Under the pieces are notes generated by a model. It was not told where the DNA came from, ran no database searches, and saw only the letters and a list, made by a program, of their open reading frames with translations. A program made the position numbers and the translations under genes. Below, in pieces: positions 3,001 to 64,000 of a DNA stretch of 64,000 nt; the stretch's first letter is position 1; each line of letters starts with the position of its first letter. The DNA is taken from contig AP031356.1 in the NCBI GenBank assembly GCA_037833965.1, positions 1,262,501 to 1,326,500 on the forward strand, given 5' to 3'. The DNA is from Marchantia polymorpha subsp. ruderalis (taxonomy: Eukaryota > Streptophyta > Marchantiopsida > Marchantiales > Marchantiaceae).

Positions 3001-6000
3001 AATAAAAATTCAAATTAGACAATACTCATTGGTCAAAGTATTCAAGAATTGATGACAAAAGTTGTTTCACAATCTACAATATGTGAAAGTAAACACAATC
3101 AAAAAAAATAATCTTTAAATTATCAAATTTGATAATTAAAAGAGAAAAAAATTTGATCATATAATTATTTCATTTCATTATCATGAAGGAAAAAAAACTT
3201 TTTTATTTATAAATTTATAATATTAAGAAAAAATCATAATTTTTAATTTGTCAATTGATGTCAATCCAAAATGAATTATATTAATAACTATTTAATAGTC
3301 AACTTTTACCTTCGAATCACTTGATTGAATTTTGATATATTAACTTTTTAATCTAATAATTGTCAATGTTGATCCAACAATAATGTGAAAGTGGCATGCA
3401 ACAATGCTTGCACAAAGATTAATAATTTTAAATTTGTTAGTCATCTCAATTAAATGAGTTAAACCAAGATCAAAAATCAATATTTGATATTATAGTTAGC
3501 ATAAAATATATTTTCATTGATAACAATTTTGAAATTTTAAATTTTGAAATTTTCAATTTTCAATTTTAAATAATTTTAATAATTAAATTATATAATTTAG
3601 TTCAAATTTTGATCATATGAAATTTGACAAATCATATATTTTAGAATCTAAATTTCAGAATTTGCACATATATATTACAATAACGTTTTCATAAATAATA
3701 TGAAGCAAGATAACAATCACAAAAACTAATTGTATGAAGTCAAACATTGCAACTTCAATGAATTGATATTTTATTTTCAAGTATCATCAAATACAAGACA
3801 TGCTCAAATCAATCATTAAAAAAATAATTTGAACCAAAGATTGTTTTTTTCAAAAAATAAAATAAAATTTATGAAACAGATAAATATAAATAAAATTATA
3901 TTATAGTTACAATCTTATGTCATAAATAATTTGGATAAGGATAAAACTTATACATAATACTTATCATTAAATAAAATTTGAAACAACATTATCAAAATTT
4001 TCCTATACATTCTTTAAGCTAATACATTAGTTCATAAATAAATGAAAACAAATATATTAAGTTGAATTGATATGTTCATGATTTTGTTTATCTGAAAAAT
4101 ATTTATTTTATCATTGATTAAGAAATTATTATGTTTGTTTCTAAGTCTAACAAATCATTATCACAAATGTTGTTTCATCATTATGATAGTCAAATCATCA
4201 TTTATAATAACGCATCAAATGTTATGTTGACAATAAATCTTTAGCAAATATGATGATATATTTTAATCATTAATTTTCTTATTTTATTAATTTCAATCAA
4301 TGTGAATCACAAGCCATGAAACCTTTGAATAGTTACATGATAAAAAATTCGAAGATTAAATTAAGGTAAAGAAAAAAATATAAGATTATGAGATCATGTT
4401 TTAAAAAATGTGTTAAAGCAATAAAAAAGATCTATTGAAATTGTGAAAAAAAAAGACCATTTAAGAAAAATATTTGGTAAAATGATGTTTCATAAACAAC
4501 AGCAACCAAGAATGAGAAAAAAAACTTGTTTTACACAAAGTATGTTTTATGATGTCAACAACCGTGCAACTTTCACTTCATTATAAGAATTGTAAATTGT
4601 GTAGATAATTGAATTGTAAATTTTTACTATTCATAACATATTTGTTATAGAAAAAAATATATTTAATGTCTAATCAACATCAAGCATGTTAAAATGATTA
4701 AGATAAGACTAATGAGATTAATCTTATTAAATAGAACATATTATTCTGTTAATATTTGATAATTTTTGTAATAAATTGAAAAAAATCATCTAATATTCAG
4801 ATTGATTGCTAGTACATAATTCTTTTCGAAAAATAATAGATTTTTTTTTATGTATTAAGATGGAATATTTTGTGAAATATTATTTATGTAGATCTCAACA
4901 TAACATTGATTATTTGTGTAAGAACATGTTCATTTAATACAATGTTTTTTTACACTTTGATATAGTTAAAAAAAATTACAATTTCTTTTGCACTTAAAAT
5001 CACAATTTTCATAAAAAAAATCGGAATTTATACAAAGTGACATGTTTAATTTATCTCTCATTTTATTGATTATGGGTAGCTGTTTTTTATGTTGTATGTT
5101 ATCATTGTCTCAATCTTGTGTGAAGTTATTGTATACGTAAAAAGTCAAAGTTCTTTGTTGTTTTCAAAGAGTGTACTTTATAAGTTGTAAGTGAAAATAG
5201 CAAGATAATGACATTTTAATTAATAAATGATTTGAAATATACTTTTCAAAATTTGAGATTGATTGTCAATAAAACCAGATATACTTTTATCTGATTAATA
5301 TATAAATTTCAAATCATAATAATAGTTATGATAATAATATGATTTTGTATGGATTATAATAATTGATTTTTTGATAGTATTTTTTTATGTGTTTGTGATT
5401 TTGTTTGAACTGTTTCTGATTCAGAGTAGTTTTTTCATTGTTGTTTTTATGATAATATACATGATTTGATTTTAAAGAGAAAACTTATGATTATCGTTCA
5501 AGAAAAATTTAAATGATATGATTTGTAGATTGCTAAAATGTTAGTCTAGGTTAAAGCAATTCTATGGAAAATGAAACGAAATATGTTATGATTTCATAAG
5601 ATTGCAACACTATGTGTTTCATTCTTATGCATAAATGGGAATGATGATGGATTTATATTCGTACGTAGGTAGTGTAAATTTGACATGCATTTATATTATT
5701 GTGTTAAATATAGATTAAAAGTTCATGTAATATTAACTTGACAAATCTGTGTTAAAATTATTATTTTCCATACATACATGTTTATTTGAATATTTTAATT
5801 TGAAAATAAATTAAGTATATAACAGAAGAAATATAATTTAAAAATTTTATGGTTGATAATTTTATTCTTTCGTGTAAAAATATATATTTTTATAAAAATA
5901 TGAAGTTATTTTGAAAAAAAGGAGTCCTAATAAATGTTATTATACATGATAATATTACTTTTTTAATGAAACTTAATAATACATAGTCTATTACTCATCA

Positions 6001-6900
6001 CAAAAAATTATTTTTTTCCTGATTTAAAGATTTGTAGAATAAACGCTAAATTTGATTGTGATCAGTTATCACATTACTTCATGAATATGTACATCAAGGC
6101 ATTGTTCTCACTTTTAAAATAAAAGCATTGTAATGATGAAAAAATCTCATTCATGATTTTTACATGTTAGGCTTGAAAATAGTTGGATAATATTTTCAAT
6201 TTTTTGTATCTGCATATAAATAAAAAAACCAAGAGTCTTCGTAAATTTGGTAAATTTCAAAATTTCATATATCATATAATGTTAAAGTTAAATTTGTTTA
6301 CAAAATAATTTTGTAATAGATGTGTGGAAATTGAATTTACTTACTTACTTACTTACTTAAATAAATTTTATATTAAATAATTAAATTAAGATATATTCTA
6401 ATAAGTAAATTATCATTATATTAAAAATTCAAATATTTCCTTATATTTTGCTAGAAAGTAAATTGAAATTAAGTTTATCGAATTTGAAATACGTAATAAA
6501 CTAATTTTTTTTCTTCATTTCTCCTAAAATTATTATCAAAATGACTATTTTCATAAAGAAATGTAAATATCCAGAAATAAATTTCATTCTCGTGTCTTGT
6601 TTTTTAATATTTTTGTAGTGCATATATTTGTAGATTGAGTATAATGACATAAGATTGATTACATGCTTCATTTCATGATCAATTTCCTTTATTGTTTTTT
6701 TATATTCAAGTAGATTGAAATGAGGAGATTTGTGAAAAAATTTACAATACAAACATACCATAATTTTTTTCCGACATCAAATAGTTCAAGTATGTTGGAC
6801 GCAGCATCCGCTTTGTATTTGAAGCACATGCTTTAGTTTAGTCTTCACTTTATATCAAGATTGTATTTACAGTAATGTGATCTTATAGAATCAAACTTAA
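1..6900. other. AT-rich gene-free DNA
   Basis: This stretch is very AT-rich, with many A and T runs, and I could not support any gene in it. The most protein-like open frame is on - at 1043-1345 (100 codons, mixed composition), with further short open pieces on the same strand near 1616-1825. They may be remains of an old mobile element, but I recognise no domain. A short (ACTT)n run lies near 6337-6357. Nothing else stands out. Confidence 0.6.
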
Positions 6901-9660
6901 ATGACGAATGGGGACTTGGTTATGAAGTCGAAGTACACAGTGAAATAAAGTGGAGTTAAAATTAACGTGCACTGTCTTCAGCAAAGCTGAATTAGTAGGA
7001 AGTATTGCAGGTCAAGCACTAAGAGTTGCAAAGGTTACGTGCACAATCTCTACATTTTATGTTTGAAGTCGTATGAGCTATTTTCAATTAAGTAATAGAG
7101 GTTGCAAAGTGAGCATGCGAAGACAATGTTGGAATACTTTTAACTTATGAGATGGAACAAGTTACAATTGAGCTGTTTTTACTGGTATAGCATGAGAACA
7201 TACATATAGATATAAATAATTGACCATTATTCTTGTGCTGGATGCTTGGAATCATCTCACTGACTTGCACTCTCAATTTATTTCTGAAAAAAAAATCCTG
7301 ATATAAGAGATTGTAGGTGAGTTTGCGGGGCAGTCCAAGCGCATGCCAGACTGTTATTCGATTGTGCGACCAGGAATCCGAGGAATGAACATTCACGATG
7401 TTCGCACATTTGAAACATCTGCCTAATCGGTAGCTGTCATTCGAGACCGAGTCGAAGAAAGACCGGCCGATCACAACATGCGTAAGAACGACATCAACAA
7501 ACACTCTGTCCCGACCTTCCTCACGTTGCACCAACTCGTTCGATTCTCTGCGCCTCGGCATGCAAATATTCATTCCCCGTTTTGACTTTATCCCACGGAC
7601 CCCAATTCCAACTCATTGCAGCCGGCAGACAGCCCGAACAGGCAGGTGGAGTAGTACTGTACAGTAGTCCCGCGGTAGATACTTGCGAGCACGCTCTTTC
7701 TATCTTTGCATGTACGTTTTGTAATGTATGTGGTAAGGGGAAATGGCCCAGTTGCAGTGGATCATCGTCTACGCTAGTTGCTATGAATTAGGTGAGCTGC
7801 GATCTAGTACTGGAGATGGATTATGTAAGCATGGGGCTGGGGCCGGGCAGGGCAGCGCGGTGAGTTTATCGATGACCGGCGAGGAATATTTGCAGCCACT
7901 CGTGCTAACTTTGGACCATCTGCAGCTCGAGCATATCGATAATAACCACCCACAAACTCACGCCATTAGCCGTCCGCGTCCGCGTCCATCACCTCTCGAA
8001 CTGTGGTGGCTCGACCATGGGACCCGGTACTACTTTTACGGCGTCCATTAGCTCACGTCCCTCGTAGGCCTCCCCGCCCAGATTCCGCAAAGGAATTCAA
8101 TTCTCGAATCGGGAGATTCTTGACATTGTTGATCGGAAAGCGGATAAAAGAAAAGAAGAGAAGAGTCCGGGAGATAAAAGAAAGGTTCTAGTGGATCCAG
8201 CGGAAAAGGAATAAGACAAAACCACGGAGCCTGGATCCAGCACTCCATGAGTAGATGACTGGGACATGGAGTTACAGTACACGATTCTGTTACTGTAATG
8301 AATGCTTGGGGTGAGATTTGTCTGAAGTTCTTCCTTGCGCGAGGAGACTTGGTGCCGAGACCGGCCTCAAGCTCCGATGTACCAACCACCGGAATCTCTT
8401 TGTTTCCTCCTCAGCGTAACGCTACAAGAACCGTACTGCATGAGTGACCGGTTGGTACCCGGGTGCACACGTGTATCGACATGATTGCTCAAATTTCGGT
8501 AGGAAGCCGGGCGGACCGTTGGTCTTGGACCAACGGCACCGCGTTGTCACTGTACCGTCAGTCCCCGAGAGCAACTCGTCGCGGCACTTGATTGTGTGCA
8601 AGGCGTTTTCGCGGTCGGACAAAGAACCGCGTAGGGGAGAGGGGAGGGGGTCGTCCGTCGACATGCGGGCGTGGTTGCGTCGGACGGCGACGACGTCGAC
8701 CGAGGGAAGAAGGGAACGCGACATGTCGGTGGAAGATTCGAAGACCGTGCGAAGCGTACGTGTGGACCAATGAGGCGCGGGGGACGGAGGAAGGACGGGC
8801 CGGCCCGACGGGGAGGCTGGGCGCTCGCAGTAACCGGCGTGACTGTCAACAGAGGATTGTAGCAGCACCCAATGGGGGCGCCCGCTTTGACCGGCACGGG
8901 CGGGGCGGTCGCGGTCGCGGTCGCGCTGGTGGCCGGCCCCCCGCGTGCCTGGTTAGGGCGATGGAGCAGCTGCTGGCTGGGGCTGGTGCTGGTGCTGGTG
9001 CTGCAGCGCTCCCCCGGGTACCCGCGCTCCGTTCGCTGGCTGCTGGTGCTGCGCTGGGCTGGGCTGTAGGTGGCGGACGAGTGAGTGGCGCTGTGCAGCG
9101 AGCGGAGGCTTATGGTTGCGTGAGTGCGTGAGTAGCGTGCTATTTTCATTCGTGCCCAGGAGCGTCTCCAATCGTCCTGCTCTCCCTTGCCCTCCGTCCT
9201 GCTCGCTCGCATCGTTCGGTCGTCGTCTGCAGTCAGCGATCCGCCCTCGCCCGCGTTCTGCAGTTTCTTAAGGTGAGCATGGCTCTCTCTTGAAGTCACA
9301 TCGAGGCACCAACGAAGCAAGTGAAGACCGAGGACACAGAGAGTCAGAGAGCGAGATAGCGATAGGGAGAGAGAGACAGGCTTAAGAGAGTGGGAGTGGT
9401 TTTTTTTGGGGTGTTGGTGAGATATTTGTTCTTGCGAGTGTTGTTGGTTGGTTGCGTCTTGTGCTTCTCCGCCTCTGCCTGCCTGCCTGCCTCGAGCGCC
9501 GGTGCTTTTTCGTTTCGGAAATTCTTTGGGTTTGGAGCGCTCGTTCGTGCACGTTCTCATCTAAGGAGGCTTCTTGATCTTGCTGTTGCGAAGGGTGAAA
9601 GAAGGAGAGAGGACGGTTGCCACCAGACCTCCGGTCGTCCGCGTACAACAGTTAAGGTTC
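6901..9660. promoter_or_regulatory. GC-rich island upstream of the eIF1 gene
   Basis: Base composition changes sharply from the AT-rich DNA to the left. From about 7.3 kb, and strongly from 8.4 to 9.3 kb, the sequence is GC- and CpG-rich, with short GGTCGC and GCTGGT trinucleotide-type repeats around 8900-9000. A purine-rich GAGA tract lies around 9338-9378. Several long open frames overlap on both strands here, as expected of GC-rich DNA with few stop codons, and none resembles a known protein. The likely role is promoter plus 5' leader of the eIF1 gene that starts at 9661. AG|GTGAGC at 9271-9278 would be a good donor for a leader intron, but I cannot fix its acceptor. Confidence 0.5.
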
Positions 9661-53925: not shown

Positions 53926-56796
53926 CTCCACCATGAGCTCAGTACGAGCTTTGCCATCCTCGACAGCTGCTACAGGACCCTCTTGCCAACAATTCCTACG
54001 AAGCCAAGACACATATTTATCTGCATCCCTGCAATAATGCACCAGTCCAGGTTTCCATGTTCAGCTCATCCAACTTACTGACTCAAATACTCTATTTGCT
54101 CGTGCAGTTTTAGGTTTGTAAATGCTAGACAGGACCAAATAAGGCAATTCAACGATACTCAATGCAAGAAACGTTGTAAAAAGAACCTCTACAATGCACT
54201 GACTGCTACCACTACGTGACTCGTATATTAGGTGTATTAAAAGTTTCTGTTGCCAGACCTCGGACTGGCGATAACAATATCTTTTGGTGCAACGATGTAG
54301 TATAAAGGGTCGTCTCCAGCTGCCCACTGTCCTCCGGCATTGCTGCTACCTGTGGGTATACATTAGATATGCAAATTATGACTTGTTTCACCTACCACCG
54401 AGGCGGAGGCTTTCTAACAACCACAAAAACTTGATGAACTCCCGTATTCCGACTAGGCCAGTAGCGTACCCGAAAGAGGAGCATGCGCCAGGACGTAGTC
54501 CTTGGCTTTGTTGTGTTCGTGGCCGTGAATAGATAGAGCATCGATTGCCAGTTCATCGTTTGTCCAAGTTACGATCCGCACTTCTGGTCGTTGAGCATGC
54601 CCCTGCTTGTTCGATACTGTCAGTATTATGACATATACGAACGGACGTTCTTAACGTGACAGCTAAGGTAGGTGAGAATGGAGATCAGCGCACAGTTTTA
54701 AAACTATGGCATGCCGTTCACTACATGCTATGGTTGACTGAGTGTGCATCCTGCCTCTAAGATACCAAAAGATCTCCCTCTATGGAAGCACTTTCAGAAA
54801 TGCTGACGCCATTGTTATCTTCACCTGCTTTGTAGTAGGCAAGGCAGCAGAAGTGAAAATGGCATCAGCAGTTTCAACTTGAGCAGCAGGAGCTGCAACT
54901 TCAGGAATGTAAGCCAAGACAACAAGAGCATTGCCAAACGGGGCAAGACCTGATATGTAATACTCAGTCTGGATAACGGCCTTGATTTCAACGTACTTGG
55001 ACCCGCTTCCAGCACTGCCTTTCAATCCAATCCCCAATATATCCCCAGATGCAGCACCGTTCTTTCCATCTCTCGTCCGAACGCAAGCAATTTTAACGCA
55101 ATTGGCCCAGCCGAGAACCAGCAGAGCATCATCCTACAAAACGAATGGTAAGTTTAACATTGTACATCACAGAGTTGAGAGCATTGTCCATAAGTCAATC
55201 TTCATCAAAAACCGCAATGGGCCTCCTCAAATGCTCCTGACCTGCCAAACCAAGTGAGGACGCAATAATTCAGCTCGAGGGCTGTCTTTCGGACGTTCGA
55301 TGAAGGTTATGCGTTGATGAGATACAGTATCATACACCTTCACGCCAACATCATTTGCCCAAGCTATGAGACTTGTTCTCCACTTGACTGCATGAACAGG
55401 ACCTTCTCCCGAATGCAACACCTGTGTCCATCAGGAGGAATATCAGATCACCGCTCCTCCTTGAGAAAAAAATATTTGTGCTGTGCACATTACACTGCGA
55501 GGCGTAGAACTAAGACAGTGCCGATGTAAATAGTAATAATACCTGATCACGCGAGCCAAACCAGCCCTTGGTGTAGAACATGAGTTGCCCCGCCAACCCC
55601 CCAGCCGCGAATCGTTTGGATGCCTTTCTCGAGTAATCTGGATCCAAAGCAACTGCTTTCATTGGCCTGTGATATTCAAATTTCTCCTTCTCATCGGTGT
55701 ACAAGCTGTTGATTACCACAGACCCATCATCTGAGCAGCTTCCAATGAACTCTACGTCTGCATCGAAACTCGATTCATTCACGGTGGCTGCATGTGCTGC
55801 AAACCGTTTCACCTGTAAATGGTGAAAGAGATACAAAAACCACTGTGAGACAATTTTTTGTTGAGATAGACGACTTTTACAATCAGCGACCTCAATAAGT
55901 GTGACCGGTAAGATTTTAAACTAGTTCATGCTATGTCTCGTACAGATATATGACGACCGTACAAATTTCAGGAATATCAAAGAATTGGCAGAAATCGTCT
56001 CCAGCAGCTAAACTAGGATATTCCCCGCCCACCCTACGTCCTTTGTACGTGACTCAATTGTAGCTGCAACTCAGACATCTACAGCCATCAGCAGAAACTC
56101 ACACGATGAAGAGAGATGTGATTTCGGCCGGGAGGGGAAGGCCCTCCTACACAGAGCTTTTCCGAACTCGAAGGTTATCGACAACCAAAACGTTTCTAAA
56201 ATTTCGATTAGATCGTTAGCATGATATACTATCGACCTCATCACGTTTATGTGCTAATCCGTGTTTCGTATTTGTCCAAATGGGTTACTATTTAACAAAC
56301 CGAACAAGGCAAGATACACAATTCAACGTCCGACCTTTCAATCTAGACCCTCGACGGAACCTCAGGACACTATGACAAGACCCTGAACGCTGTCAAGATG
56401 TAAAACTCTGATGTAGATGCAACTTGCTTCAATATGGATAAGTGACAAGACGGGGCAATTCGTTTGTTGGTTTCATGGATACTATTGACATTTAGAGAGG
56501 ATTCTTCGGCCGAATACTTTGCTCAAATTTTTGGCAATGATGATGAGTGCGAAAACTCTTACCTCATTTCCTAGATAATCGAGTAGATACACATTTCCAT
56601 CGTGAGTACCCAGTGCAATAATGCGTTCAACTACAGTGAGGCAAGACGCAGCATCAGCAGAGAGTAGCCTTGGCACACTCCCGCCCATCCGCTGATACTT
56701 CAAGCAGATTTCCTCTTCTTCGTTCGAAGCGTCTTCTTCTTCCTCCTCTTCAGGATCTTCCTCGTCATCAAGTTCCTCGTCTCCAACATTCGTCAT
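53926..56796 (-). pseudogene. Truncated VPS41 duplicate, exons 1-7 only
   Basis: Exons on - are 56563-56796, 55543-55812, 55242-55421, 54825-55133, 54470-54602, 54259-54349 and 53926-54028. They match VPS41 exons 1-7, keep every splice site and phase, and join into 440 open codons (about the first 440 of 1012). After exon 7 (AVEDGKARTELMVE) the sequence runs into AT-rich DNA, so the helical repeats and RING are missing. The N terminus is shortened (MTNVGDEELDDEED) by an in-frame loss relative to copy A. Changes from copy A include many replacements at conserved sites (such as DADGEF to DADVEF and EPRLKYQR to EICLKYQR). Exon 7 is the most altered. This looks like a young duplicate free to decay, although a short WD40-like protein could still be made. 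Confidence 0.85.
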
Positions 56797-58080: not shown

Positions 58081-58344
58081 TTAGGCCCAAACCACACGAC
58101 CGGCACCGGCAAAGAATACTCGACTCTCATTGGCAGGACTGCTGCCCCCCTTACCACACGGGAGGGAGCGGCAATTAGAAAAATCCTAGGTGGCAAAAAA
58201 AACTATCGTTCCGGAGTACCAGGCACTTCCGCCCGGAAACCCGATTTTTACGGAAATTCCAACTCCACGTGGACATTCGCGCCTTTTACAAGTTTTCGAA
58301 GAGCACTTCCACTTGATAGGATTTCTCAAGATTTTCTCGACGCG

Positions 58345-61300
58345 ATGGAGTCACAGGGAACTCCGCCGTATGATTTCACGAATAATGCATCAGGTTCCAA
58401 CTGTCCGGCTATGGGATCGGATAGCAATACGCAGGGTAGTACTACCATTCCAATGTCGCCATTTTTCGGAAAGTTTCCACACCCAGGTTTTATTTTTCCA
58501 CAACCCTTCGTGCATTCACTCCCGGGAATGCACTTTCCACCAGCAAGTAACATTTCTGCGAGCCTCCCCGTTGGATTCAATACTGGTAATGAGAAAGTCG
58601 AATTAAGTGAAGTTGATGCTATACCGACGAAAATTAGCAAGAAACGAAGAATTGCTCGTAAAAAACCTGAAATTACTCAGGTGGATGGCGTGAAAGAGGA
58701 AATCGACGTTTCAAAGAGTAATGTGCTTTGGAAGGATCATTGGATCATTCAACTGATTACACTGCGAGGAGAAATGCATAGTGCATTTTCAGCCCCGCCA
58801 AAGCAAGGTGAGTCGCATATTCATTTACTTCAGTTGCTGCCGTGATAAGTATATTGCACGATTCGAAACAATTGCTCGCCCAACATTGTTTATGGCCACG
58901 AAATCATCGTTGTTCTTGGATTGTAGATTGCTACATTCTTAGATTAAGTTTCGATCAGTTACATAAATCAAGCTCTGCCGGACAGCGATGTGTTCGCTGC
59001 TGTCTTTCTCCTCGAAGAGTACTGCTCGCAGTCCTCGAAAAGTCGTTTGCAGGTAGAGGACTGAGATTATATAGCAGCATGTAGATGTACGTGAAAGCAC
59101 GCAATTTACGAGTATCTCGGTTAGTGTCTTTGGGATATGAATTACTGGGGGTATAGATTAATTCTCAGAATACTTCTACCCGAGCAGTCCAGTAGGCATA
59201 TAAGAAGGTGCAGTGCATTTCCTGAATGGATGTGTAAGATTCGAAACTATCTGAGATTCTAACAGATTAATTCCGAGATCATATTACTTGCAGGAAGTAG
59301 GACATCTGAATTGTAACCGGCAGGCTTTGACTGAGTGTTATTTCACGCTTTCAGATGACAGTTTCACTTTGAGATTCATACTATCTACTTGACTATCCGA
59401 ATAACGAAGTAACAAAACATTCAAGCAAACTGTGAAATCCATTTTTCCTTCATAGCAATATGTACCACTACAATCTCTTTACTTACTCGATTTCAAGATT
59501 CTCCCGTGAATGTGTCCATTTTGTGGCGGGTTCAAATCTTGGTGGGTTGGCAGGCAGAGCCATATCAACTTCCCTTCGTTGTGATCTCCAGTTGTCCATA
59601 CCGTCTTGTATCTGTGCACATGAACTTAGGAAACTTATAAACTTATATACTTAGAAACAATAACATTAGAATCGATTTTGAAGAATTGTCTACAGTCGAT
59701 ACACTAAATTAGGTTGCAAGTTTTTTCTTACACTTCGTTCGCATATCAGTTATTGTTACTATTGTTCAGTATGCTTAATCTAATGCTTTTTTAACAAGGA
59801 ACAGTAGTGCATGCTTGGTAAAATCCATGTGCTTCACATGGTCAGCTTTTATTCTGAGTTTACATTCTGAGCTCATATCATGTGACGTCTATCAATCATA
59901 GGTTGTGATACAGCCTTAGACAGCTTCTGTACTTCTTTTTTACAAAATGCATTCAGCATAATTTGAAGCGTGCATTGTAGAGCTGGAGTGGCGTGAGCAC
60001 GTACTCTCTAAGCTAACTCTAGAATAATCAGCTTTCATGTGATTAAGCTTAGAAGTACACCAGGTCTGAAAGTTGAAGAGGTAAAACACAACCTTCTAAA
60101 CCTGTTGAAATTTAATCTCTTGCGGGAATACCACTAAGACTTCTTTGTTCCAGATAGTTATTCAACACATTACTTCTACATTGAGTACCACCAACTATGA
60201 CTTACGAATGCCCGTCTAAAGTGGTAACAATTTAGACAACCTCCACCTCTACTAGCAGTTTGACGGCCGTAAAAACCAAAAAGCATTTAATTGTTTGTGC
60301 ATTAAGAGGGAAGTCTCCATCATCAGTCTTCTTTCTTATCCTCAGTGTTTGTCTCTTTATTTCTTATCAATCTTGCCCTTTACCTTGCTCTGGTGGTGTA
60401 CTGTTTGTGTTTGACAGAATAAAGGACCTGTAGTTTAAGCTATGCATAATCCTGTTTTATTTCTGATTCTACATTTATTCTCTAGTTACCTGCGTCTAGG
60501 GTGTAAGTGCCTCTGGTCAGTACTTCAGCCTTTCCTTGCCTTGAGAACGCTCTGAAGTCAACATGTTCGTATCAGACCTCTAAATACGTCGAAGCCGATT
60601 TCGCGATTGGACCTATATCTGAAAATTATACACACAAGAGATCTTTACTTCCAGTTCTCAGCTAGAATACTTGTGACTGTCGGGTCTATTTATCCTGCAT
60701 GGTTCCCAAAATGTCCTTTTATTAATGTTCGTCAGGGATGATCCAGCCGCCTTTGTTCAGTTTATTGCAATTATACTGCCGATTTGGACGAAAGGTGTTC
60801 TCGTTGAGTTTTTCTTTGTCTGGACTGGTGAAGTTGGTTGTGGTTTTCTTGTTGCTACTCCTCTGTCGTAGGGAAATGTCGATACCATGGTAAGATGATC
60901 AAAGATCTGTTGAACCAACTCTTCTCAGTACACCCGGTCTTATTTACTGTGACAGGGTGGAATCCTCAAAAAGCTGTGACATTTCTTGACAACCATGATA
61001 TTAGTTCAACTCAGCGACATTGGTGCTTTCCTGACAAGAGGGTGGTGATGGGATATGCCTACATCCTGACACATCCTGGCATTCCTTGTATTGTAAGCAG
61101 CACGTAGACTGAAAATCCCAGTCACTTCTAGCTATATATGGCCCCAAGGCTGAGTAACTTGTACCAGCACACACATAGCACTATACACGATTTTTTTATG
61201 TTTCTGATGTCTCAGCAAACATGTACACCCGATTGACTTCACTTAATTTTAACAGAAAGAACTTATTTCTTTCTTTCAAATTTATTTCACAACTTGTTAC

Positions 61301-62368
61301 ACCTACTTCGAGCTTGTGCTGCTTGTGCTTAGGTGTTGATAATTCTTCTACGTTGGATACATATGCTACTGGATCCGGTGGTTGTTCTCAGGCTTCTCTT
61401 GGCCACAGGCCGCCAAGAGTTGTGTACAAATCGGATATTTGCATTCCATGCTTACTTATAGGAGCATATAGATTGCCTTCAAACAATGCATCTACTAGAA
61501 GAGTCACAGATTTCCGAGCTGGTATACAACAGGATCCTATTATAGAGTTTCTTTTCTATTGCATACACCATGTATGCCTACAGTGCCTAAAATCATCATG
61601 AAGCAGTCAATTTTTTCCCCATCGTTCTGTCAGTTGATGGATTCTGTCTAGTAGGTATACCTTGTGTGCTACGAACAAATGTGCTCACATATCTTTGTAC
61701 AATATCTAGAACTGCGACTGTTTGCACGCTTCTTTTGTCTTGGCTTTTGGTTTTGAAGTTGACCAGAAACAGATACTGCACATGATCATAAAAGCTATGC
61801 TTAGTGAGTTAGTAATTTAGTGTATGTCAATTCTCATTGATTGTGTTTTTTAATACAATCTTATGCGTTTGTGTTTTGTTCAGGTGTCGATAATTGGTCA
61901 CGGCTTCACACGAAGCTTGTGTCCATGTGTCCTGATTTCAATAAAGACAGTGAAGCATGTAGAAAAAAATGGAGTTCCATCTATACCGAATACAAAGAAG
62001 ACAAGGCAATGAATATGAAGTCGGGATCGCAACGATCGGAGAAATGTCGATGGTATCTCTTGGTGGACGAGTTTATGTTTGACAGGGCAAACGTAGTTTT
62101 ACATGCCCATGCCGATGTTATGGACGGAGATGGAGTGAAGTGCAGCGTCACTTCGGAGACAAATACAAAGGAGCAAAAAAGTGGGGAGAGTTCATCAAAA
62201 TCACCGGAGCCTAAACGAAAAGAGGATTTGTTCTTGGAAAGATGTCTTGGAGAGCTGAAAGAGAGTAGTAAGATTATGCTAGAGAGTTTGAAGAGCAATG
62301 ATGATATAAAAATGGCACTATTAATGAGTATGCAAAAAACCATGGAGAAATTGGTTGATAAACTCTAG
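58345..62368 (+). CDS. Harbinger ORF1: Myb/SANT-like DNA-binding protein, two exons
   Basis: Exons 58345-58807 and 61884-62368 join at a phase-1 GT-AG intron of 3076 bp (CAAG|GTGAGT ... TTCAG|GTGTCGAT), giving 315 residues. The N-terminal part is Pro/Phe/Ser-rich with a basic stretch KKRRIARKK (likely nuclear signal). Spanning the splice is a trihelix/SANT-type domain: [48 protein letters not shown] and [12 protein letters not shown]. The C terminus is a charged helix ([18 protein letters not shown]). In Harbinger elements this protein binds element DNA and helps import the transposase. The start is the first ATG of the frame inside the element that gives a sensible N terminus; the frame is open further upstream into duplicated host DNA. 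The intron contains an alpha-amylase exon. Confidence 0.85.
58808..61883 (+). other. Long intron of ORF1
   Basis: 3.08 kb between a good donor and acceptor. Apart from the alpha-amylase exon at 60956-61092 I see no domain. An open stretch at 61221-61601 ends without known similarity. Another AG|GTGTTGATAATT at 61331-61344 resembles the true acceptor context at 61882 for a dozen bases only. Confidence 0.6.
60956..61092 (+). pseudogene. Captured alpha-amylase exon inside the ORF1 intron
   Basis: The 137-bp stretch encodes [20 protein letters not shown], then [25 protein letters not shown]. This is the plant alpha-amylase (glycosyl hydrolase 13) region IV, with its F.DNHD motif around the conserved catalytic-site Asp, and the following strand. 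It sits between an intact acceptor (GTGACAG) and donor (GTAAGC), so it is a whole exon rather than a random slice. The usual Thr after DNHD is Ile here. No other amylase exon is seen nearby. It lies in the same orientation as ORF1. The phases do not allow silent inclusion: the entry phase fits ORF1 exon 1, but the exit phase shifts exon 2. Confidence 0.85.
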
Positions 62369-63035
62369 TTGAAGAATAATTTAGGTGGACAGTATGTAAG
62401 AGAAATGGATTTTAGATTATTCTTTATGTCTTCACGACATGAAATGACAATGTGATACTTATACTAATACATTGTTGATTTGTTTGGTGGTTTTTCAAAC
62501 CTTTTGAGTTCTGTTTGTTTCTTTTTTCAAAAACTAAAGTTGGTTGATTCTTCTAGCACTTTTGAGCCTGCTTTCATGTAGAGTAATGTTTGTATTCATT
62601 TGTATAGAGTTGAAGCATGTACAAGGTACAAGCTTGATGTAGCATAATGTCTGCATTCATTTGTACACCAATTTGAACGATTGGTGTCATGACTAATCAG
62701 TGTGAGAACCAGAAAATTACTCTTGTCCGAAGGACAGTACAGTACTTTCTCTGACCTGTTCTGATTTCTTTTGCTTAACTTGTCAGTAGTGCATTAAAAT
62801 ACAAGGTGAAACAGTGAGTTCAAAGTGTGTTGATTGCGCATGGAATTTAGAGTGATAATAGATTTCTCTGATTATGAAGCATGTACTTGGATCAGTATAT
62901 GTGGATTTTATTATATGTAGATATTACGTTAATCCTCATAACAGATGTCTAACGCCACAAGTCTAAATAGTTCACTAAAAAATTTACTACTTGCTAGCTT
63001 CAGAAAATGCACCGAACATCAAATACTAGGCTAGA
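62369..63035. other. Spacer between convergent Harbinger genes
   Basis: Holds the 3' UTRs of ORF1 (+) and of the transposase (-). Contains a short repeated phrase (TGTAGAGTAATGTTTGTATTCATTTGTA near 62577 and a variant near 62638). No coding content. Confidence 0.6.
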
Positions 63036-64000
63036 CTACTCAACGTCCATGGGAAATGTTTCTGCCATACACTCTCCTGTTTTTGCCATCCACAAACTCC
63101 TGGCAATGCCGTTCCGCCTTGCAAACAACTCCTTTGCAGTTTTACCTCCAGTTGTCATTGAAATTTGAAATTCTCTTGCGATCTCCTGTTTGAAGTACTC
63201 CAATGTTTCTCGAGAGTTGTCTTCAATTCCAGCAAGGCTATGTAAAGCATGGTTAGCCACTGCAAGCTTCTCTTGTCTCGCAGGACCCGAAGGTGTCATA
63301 AGTGACAATCCATTGTGCACTTCATCTGATGCCTCTTGCAACCACTCTGTTTTCCAGAAGTTGTCTCCTAGGATGATGCACATGTTATGTAACACAAGGC
63401 AAGTACTCACCAACTCAGGCATGTTCTTCAGTTTCACGTCAACTCTTTTTAACAATATTCGCCACCTACCCTTAAGCATTCCAAATGCTCGCTCAATGCA
63501 CATACGAGTGGAACTCTGAACAAAGTTCCAGTTGTATTCCTCTCGAGTTAGCCCGTCTTTGTGACCTCTAAAAGGAGCTAACATCCAAGGGCGGCATGGG
63601 TAGGCCGCATCTCCAACCAAAGCATAAGGCGCAAGCTTTCCAGCTTCGCAAAATTGCCCAATTGCGGTTCTTCCCCATAAGTTAGCGTCATGCATGGATC
63701 CGGCCCATCCTATGTCAAAATCCCAAAATAGGCACTTGCTAGATACAACACCTTGCAATAGTATAGAGTGAAATCCTTTACGATTGTAATAATCAGCCGC
63801 ATGTAGACTAGGTGCCACAATTGGTATGTGAGAACCATCCACCGCACCAACCACATACGGTATTCCATGAATATCTTCAAACTCTCTAGCAAATTTATCC
63901 ATAGTGGTGGTGGAAGGCCACCGAATGAATCTCTTGAGAAGTAGCAATTTCACAGCATGAGTGAACTGATTAACAGCCTGTTGACTTGTTGAAAGACCAA
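63036..64000 (-). CDS. Harbinger transposase (HARBI1-like, DDE_4 nuclease), N terminus outside the window
   Basis: The frame is open from the window edge down to a stop at 63036, with about 320 residues visible. In the first visible codons it reads GLSTSQQAVNQFTHAVKLLL, the helix-turn-helix-like region before the nuclease. The DDE triad is present: VVGAVDGSHIPI (Asp), LVGDAAYPCRPWM (Asp) and RMCIERAFGMLKGRWRIL (Glu). HDANLWGRT and LHNMCIILGD are also typical of the family. The enzyme cuts and pastes Harbinger DNA at TTA-type targets. No stop or shift is visible, so this copy may be functional. Some host genes (HARBI1-like) have the same domain, but the neighbouring ORF1 and the TTA end argue for a transposon. 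Confidence 0.93.
   Translation of the reverse strand, partial: GLSTSQQAVNQFTHAVKLLLLKRFIRWPSTTTMDKFAREFEDIHGIPYVVGAVDGSHIPIVAPSLHAADYYNRKGFHSILLQGVVSSKCLFWDFDIGWAGSMHDANLWGRTAIGQFCEAGKLAPYALVGDAAYPCRPWMLAPFRGHKDGLTREEYNWNFVQSSTRMCIERAFGMLKGRWRILLKRVDVKLKNMPELVSTCLVLHNMCIILGDNFWKTEWLQEASDEVHNGLSLMTPSGPARQEKLAVANHALHSLAGIEDNSRETLEYFKQEIAREFQISMTTGGKTAKELFARRNGIARSLWMAKTGECMAETFPMDVE

Follow-up and report, generated by a model that had tools for sequence, protein, structure and literature searches.

A PIF/Harbinger element of Marchantia polymorpha with an α-amylase exon and further host DNA in the intron of its ORF1 gene

The element and its two genes

The window analyzed here (the whole 64,000-bp stretch of Marchantia polymorpha subsp. 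ruderalis DNA, on contig C7) contains a PIF/Harbinger element on the plus strand at positions 58084–64724 in window numbering. Positions 58084–64000 lie inside the window, and the element extends 724 bp beyond the window end, a part that is contained in L013. The boundaries follow from element copies that share their ends and differ in their flanks, from terminal inverted repeats that agree in 19 of their first 22 bases, and from the TTA on both sides. This TTA/TTA pair (58081–58083 on the left, 64725–64727 on the right) represents the 3-bp, TWA-like target-site duplication expected for PIF/Harbinger elements.

The element encodes a Harbinger-type DDE transposase on the minus strand (64451–63039, positions 63039–64000 being inside the window). 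This frame is open over 471 codons, and the 468 amino acids from the first methionine gave Pfam matches to DDE_Tnp_4 (PF13359, E = 2e-32) and Plant_tran (PF04827, E = 4.3e-10). The second gene, ORF1, lies on the plus strand and consists of exon 1 (58345–58807, ending in phase 1), an intron of 3,076 bp (58808–61883), and exon 2 (61884–62368). The end of exon 1 agrees to within one base with the junction originally placed at 58807. When spliced, both exons form an open frame of 315 amino acids with a Myb/SANT-like domain (PF13837, residues 128–216, E = 5.7e-8, above the curated cut-off), which straddles the intron position and is encoded for the most part by exon 2.

The original prediction had described the element as Harbinger-type and apparently autonomous. 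DDE_Tnp_4, the Myb/SANT-like ORF1, the terminal inverted repeats, and the TTA duplication agree with the first part of this description. With both the ORF1 and the transposase frames open, the window element is also apparently autonomous, as judged from its sequence. The likely start of a neighboring VPS41-like gene, with its first exon at 56521–56796 on the minus strand (Beta-prop_Vps41, E = 7.5e-11; PDB VPS41, E = 0.00027), has the element ∼1.3 kb upstream.

The amylase exon, its donor gene, and its copies

Within the ORF1 intron, and in sense orientation, lies an exon of 137 nt at 60956–61092 that enters in phase 1 and leaves in phase 0. Its acceptor side reads ...TTATTTACTGTGACAG / ...TTTACTGTGACAG, and its donor side reads GTAAGC. 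A Pfam search of the exon, only 45 amino acids long, gave no match, and its identity was settled by a PDB sequence search, in which the 45 full codons matched barley α-amylase type 1 over all 45 residues (E = 1.1e-17). The exon is α-amylase region IV, complete with both splice sites, just as had been proposed from the sequence. Seven pieces of the genome's other amylase genes were also used as queries against the window, and the sole match at E < 0.05 was found at 60949–61101. At this threshold, no further amylase exons flank the captured one within the window, either in order or otherwise.

The donor was found on contig C2 (L010, minus strand), where tblastn with the other amylase genes of the genome located seven exon pieces in order, including the neighbors of the captured exon on both sides; the N-terminal exon was not located by this search. 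The introns of the donor gene are canonical GT-AG introns with compatible phases, and two of the exon pieces gave Pfam matches to the α-amylase catalytic and C-terminal domains. The captured exon is exon 6 of the donor in our numbering. The donor exon before it ends in phase 1 and its own first bases are GG, both precisely matching the element, and the splice sites around it are identical in donor and element. No element-only sequence was found in the donor. The gene structure proves the direction of transfer for the amylase piece, the only piece for which this holds. Other amylase sequences were considered and rejected as donors. Two genes, at C5:31.38 Mb (68% protein identity) and C2:25.92 Mb (67%), have no intron at the 5′ side of the exon, and the AMY-like exons at C4:26.67 Mb and C3:26.36 Mb have the intron placed after STQ instead.

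The captured piece of ∼1.17 kb corresponds to positions 4782–5949 of L010 (reverse strand) and comprises the end of donor intron 5, the whole exon, and ∼820 bp of intron 6. In the window, intron 5 is represented by a left part at 59948–60055 (95% identity) and by its end with the acceptor AG at 60924–60955, as defined by comparison with the donor. Intron 6 follows on the right at 61093–61760, with ∼147 bp missing at 61211–61213.

The exon DNA occurs at six places in the 241-Mb genome, namely in the donor and in five element copies: the window copy, a second copy on C7 (L012), and one copy each on C9 (L008), C4 (L009), and C3 (L011). Over ∼6.65 kb, the window copy shares 99.3% identity with its C4 sister and 98.7% with its C9 sister. 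All five copies end at identical element positions. The 3-bp target-site duplications agree in four of them (TTA/TTA in the window, TAA/TAA in L008, TCA/TCA in L009, and TGA/TGA in L012), the exception being the imperfect pair TAA/TGA of L011. Comparison of the ORF1 and transposase pieces among the four sisters showed open frames in L009 and L011, a stop in the transposase of L008, and no transposase in L012.

A real amylase exon that adjoins transposon sequence could also mean that the element had inserted into an amylase gene, the remnant of which now surrounds or interrupts it. This reading is refuted by our results and has practically no probability left, since the exon lies inside the element, between the ORF1 exons, in five copies with different flanks; the window holds no second amylase exon; and a full amylase gene exists on C2 without the element. 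With an intact donor elsewhere, a copy within the element ends, and several element copies that have it in common, the case has the features of transduplication. Pack-TYPE elements are non-autonomous and without transposase, but the 471-codon transposase frame of the window copy is open, and we therefore classify it as a transduplication in an apparently autonomous element.

Two of the sister copies show further peculiarities. In the C3 copy, ORF1 and the transposase gene are separated by an additional ∼740 bp (L011:6999–7736), which are 88% identical to C4:16383090–16383801 and possibly represent a capture outside the intron. Close behind the second C7 copy follows a second, diverged element 5′ end (L012:7309–8056, 65% identity).

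Make-up of the ORF1 intron and its probable origin

The case is larger than the original prediction had suggested, as most of the remaining intron matches other unlinked loci. Altogether, 2,800 of the 3,076 intron bases (91%) match four unlinked loci, including the amylase gene (93–96% identity). The pieces all lie on the plus strand. The first, segment D (58859–59064), is 83% identical to a locus on C8 (L069), its transfer direction being uncertain. It is followed by segment A (59070–59863), which is 94% identical to C2:6087569–6088357 (6.09 Mb) and present in all five amylase-bearing copies. A linker at 59901–59947 consists of a D-derived tail and ∼25 bp that match the start of another amylase piece, found in element copies E31 and E70 (see below). 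Behind the left part of amylase intron 5 lies a 13-bp filler (60056–60068) that is similar to the bases immediately to the right of segment B (TACACC.GGTCT). Segment B itself (60069–60923) is 96% identical to C5:29248839–29249698 (29.25 Mb), is confined to the window, C4, and C9 copies, and replaces ∼65 bp of amylase intron.

Outside the element copies, a single long match was found for each of segments A and B, and four further matches, under 50 bp, for A. A further segment, C, matches element copies (E30, E31, and E70) and one further long locus. For A, B, and C, it is these single long outside matches that point to the direction of transfer. The source of B, which starts where an open reading frame ends and an apparent splice site is found, may be an intron of a gene; a Pfam search of this locus gave no match. 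The donors of the amylase piece (C2:16573870) and of segment C (C2:16777337) lie ∼203 kb apart, a proximity that may point to an element copy once present in the vicinity but could be chance.

The five source loci were compared with 21 element copies, namely E70 and 20 of the 32 matches to exon 1. At least one source was present in 8 of the 21 copies: the amylase exon-6 piece in five, an amylase exon-7 piece in two (E31 and E70), A in five, B in three, C in three, and D in eight. None of the sources was detected in the other 13, for most of which only the ∼1.5 kb downstream of exon 1 were compared. D covers the intron start in 8 of the 21 copies, and the C8 locus could therefore be either its donor or a derivative. 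The additional matches of E30 (C2:141475) and of L034 (C6:30734391 and C3:10796882) were not counted as donors, because these loci may be element remnants. Another intron make-up is common to two copies on C9 (L034:2040–3557 and L033), with an 85% match at C3:10796882–10797666, which may be a candidate source or an element remnant.

Comparison of filled with unfilled copies reveals how the joints are built. The arrival of A replaced ∼535 bp of segment D. Segment B took the place of ∼65 bp and is preceded by the 13-bp filler, which resembles sequence across the joint. There is no target duplication at the joints of A and B. Such joints resemble break repair with template switching and are unlike transposon insertions, a mechanism that we read from its outcome in the joint sequences. 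Gap filling with template switching has a precedent in animal Pack-TIRs, as described in the available part of PMC8277862.

Nested insertions of other transposons that had previously captured the amylase piece, A, B, and C might produce a similar patchwork, and B is indeed flanked on either side by a repeat of ∼12 bp (TACACC.GGTCT) that, taken by itself, might be mistaken for a target-site duplication. In the unfilled copies, however, these 12 bp adjoin one side only, and the arrival of B also removed the ∼65 bp of amylase intron. Moreover, no foreign terminal repeats were seen by eye at the joints, and the segments, with their one long match each outside the element copies, belong to no repeat family. 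We consider nested insertion unlikely.

Our preferred reading, to which we assign a probability of roughly 0.8, is that the element transduplicated the ∼1.17-kb piece of an unlinked amylase gene in sense orientation into its own ORF1 intron and then transposed at least four more times, while the intron took up, and partly lost, other host DNA, the exon being carried as a neutral passenger. Gap repair is the likely route. Breaks inside the element, for example after failed excision, would have been repaired by copying from other templates, i.e. by repeated gap repair with template switching. The amylase piece would have been copied into the ORF1 intron in this way before the element moved on, and several further host pieces would have entered the same intron, some of them being partly lost again. 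The patches would have survived there because the intron tolerates change.

A second amylase piece and comparison with known systems

In the element copies E31 (C3) and E70 (C7), the same donor gene is represented by another piece (L010 reverse strand, 6306–7040, 89–96% identity), which comprises an intron end and ∼50 bp of exon 7. This piece starts behind the same linker, and thus at the same left junction, as the exon-6 piece of the window lineage, where ∼25 bp of it remain. The remnant scores 19 in L011 and L012, a value reached by none of 300 shuffles (best score 16); the window's own, more diverged version scores 15, which 2 of 300 shuffles reach. That one junction is followed by two different pieces of the same gene suggests that homology for the second capture came from the first. 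An arrival of the exon-7 piece before the exon-6 piece would require fewer jumps. In both E31 (L031/L065) and E70 (L070), ∼365 bp of linker and amylase piece are duplicated in tandem.

Taken further, the ORF1 intron of this apparently autonomous transposon might act as a permanent cargo bay, repeatedly refilled by gap repair from unlinked host loci, with a captured piece serving as homology for the next patch from the same gene. We put this forward tentatively and think it rather doubtful, although it would explain the single left junction of the exon-6 and exon-7 pieces.

Transduplication by PIF elements is already known. The Pifvine-3 elements of grapevine contain transduplicated host exons and introns in a variable extra region of up to 3.5 kb, and, as some of this DNA is common to several copies, the ability to transpose was retained, according to the portion of PMC2528002 available. 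In contrast to the extra DNA of Pifvine-3, which that portion places in a long 5′ region outside ORF1 and transposase, the captured DNA described here fills the ORF1 intron; here, moreover, layers overwrite each other and two pieces come from one gene, unlike what is described there for Pifvine-3. Pack-TYPE elements, including Harbinger-PIF members in rice and maize, similarly carry gene pieces between terminal repeats that are spread by transposition, but are non-autonomous by the definition in the excerpted text of PMC8903248, whereas both ORF1 and the transposase are open in the window copy. Animal Pack-TIRs likewise have an internal gap filled from elsewhere, with short microhomology and with non-coding or coding filler; they are mostly single-copy and near their source (PMC8277862, in part), in contrast to the multicopy situation here, with source and element on different contigs.

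Hybrid-end capture by Pack-CACTA is another route by which a plant transposon with terminal inverted repeats gains chromosomal DNA. It takes the DNA between two neighboring copies, whereas the DNA here is internal and comes from unlinked loci (PMC13317346, in the sections available). The same sections of this 2026 review treat uptake of unlinked gene pieces by such transposons as still debated and name internal capture from unlinked loci as a possible undiscovered mechanism. In the open-licence literature searched, we found no account of an ORF1 intron being overwritten serially; measured against this literature, the intron site in a copy with open frames and the traceable overwriting with known sources are new. 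Within one genome, a single family preserves successive capture layers whose sources and joints can be identified, and it does so in copies that still have open protein genes, so that the order of events, the chemistry of the joints, and the cost to the element are directly testable. Ready-made exons inside a transposon gene are also a starting point for exon shuffling.

The original prediction further held that alternative splicing could produce an ORF1-amylase chimera with a truncated SANT domain. The phase in which the amylase exon enters does equal that at the end of ORF1 exon 1 (phase 1), and inclusion would shift the ORF1 frame to a stop within exon 2. The predicted product would consist of ORF1 residues 1–154, 46 amylase residues, and a frameshifted tail, and the domain, spanning the intron, would indeed be truncated. 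A chimeric transcript is possible. That the exon is used, either in such a truncated protein or as a poison exon throttling ORF1, appears improbable to us even though the entry phase fits and both splice sites are kept in five of five element copies; over so little divergence, splice-site conservation is weak evidence. The exon shows no sign of selection and is most likely neutral cargo, which we consider likelier than a chimera. Relative to the donor, the window exon carries four nonsynonymous and no synonymous changes, the C9 and C4 exons two and none, and the C3 exon one of each, and in the second C7 copy (one of the five) the exon is frameshifted by a 10-bp deletion.
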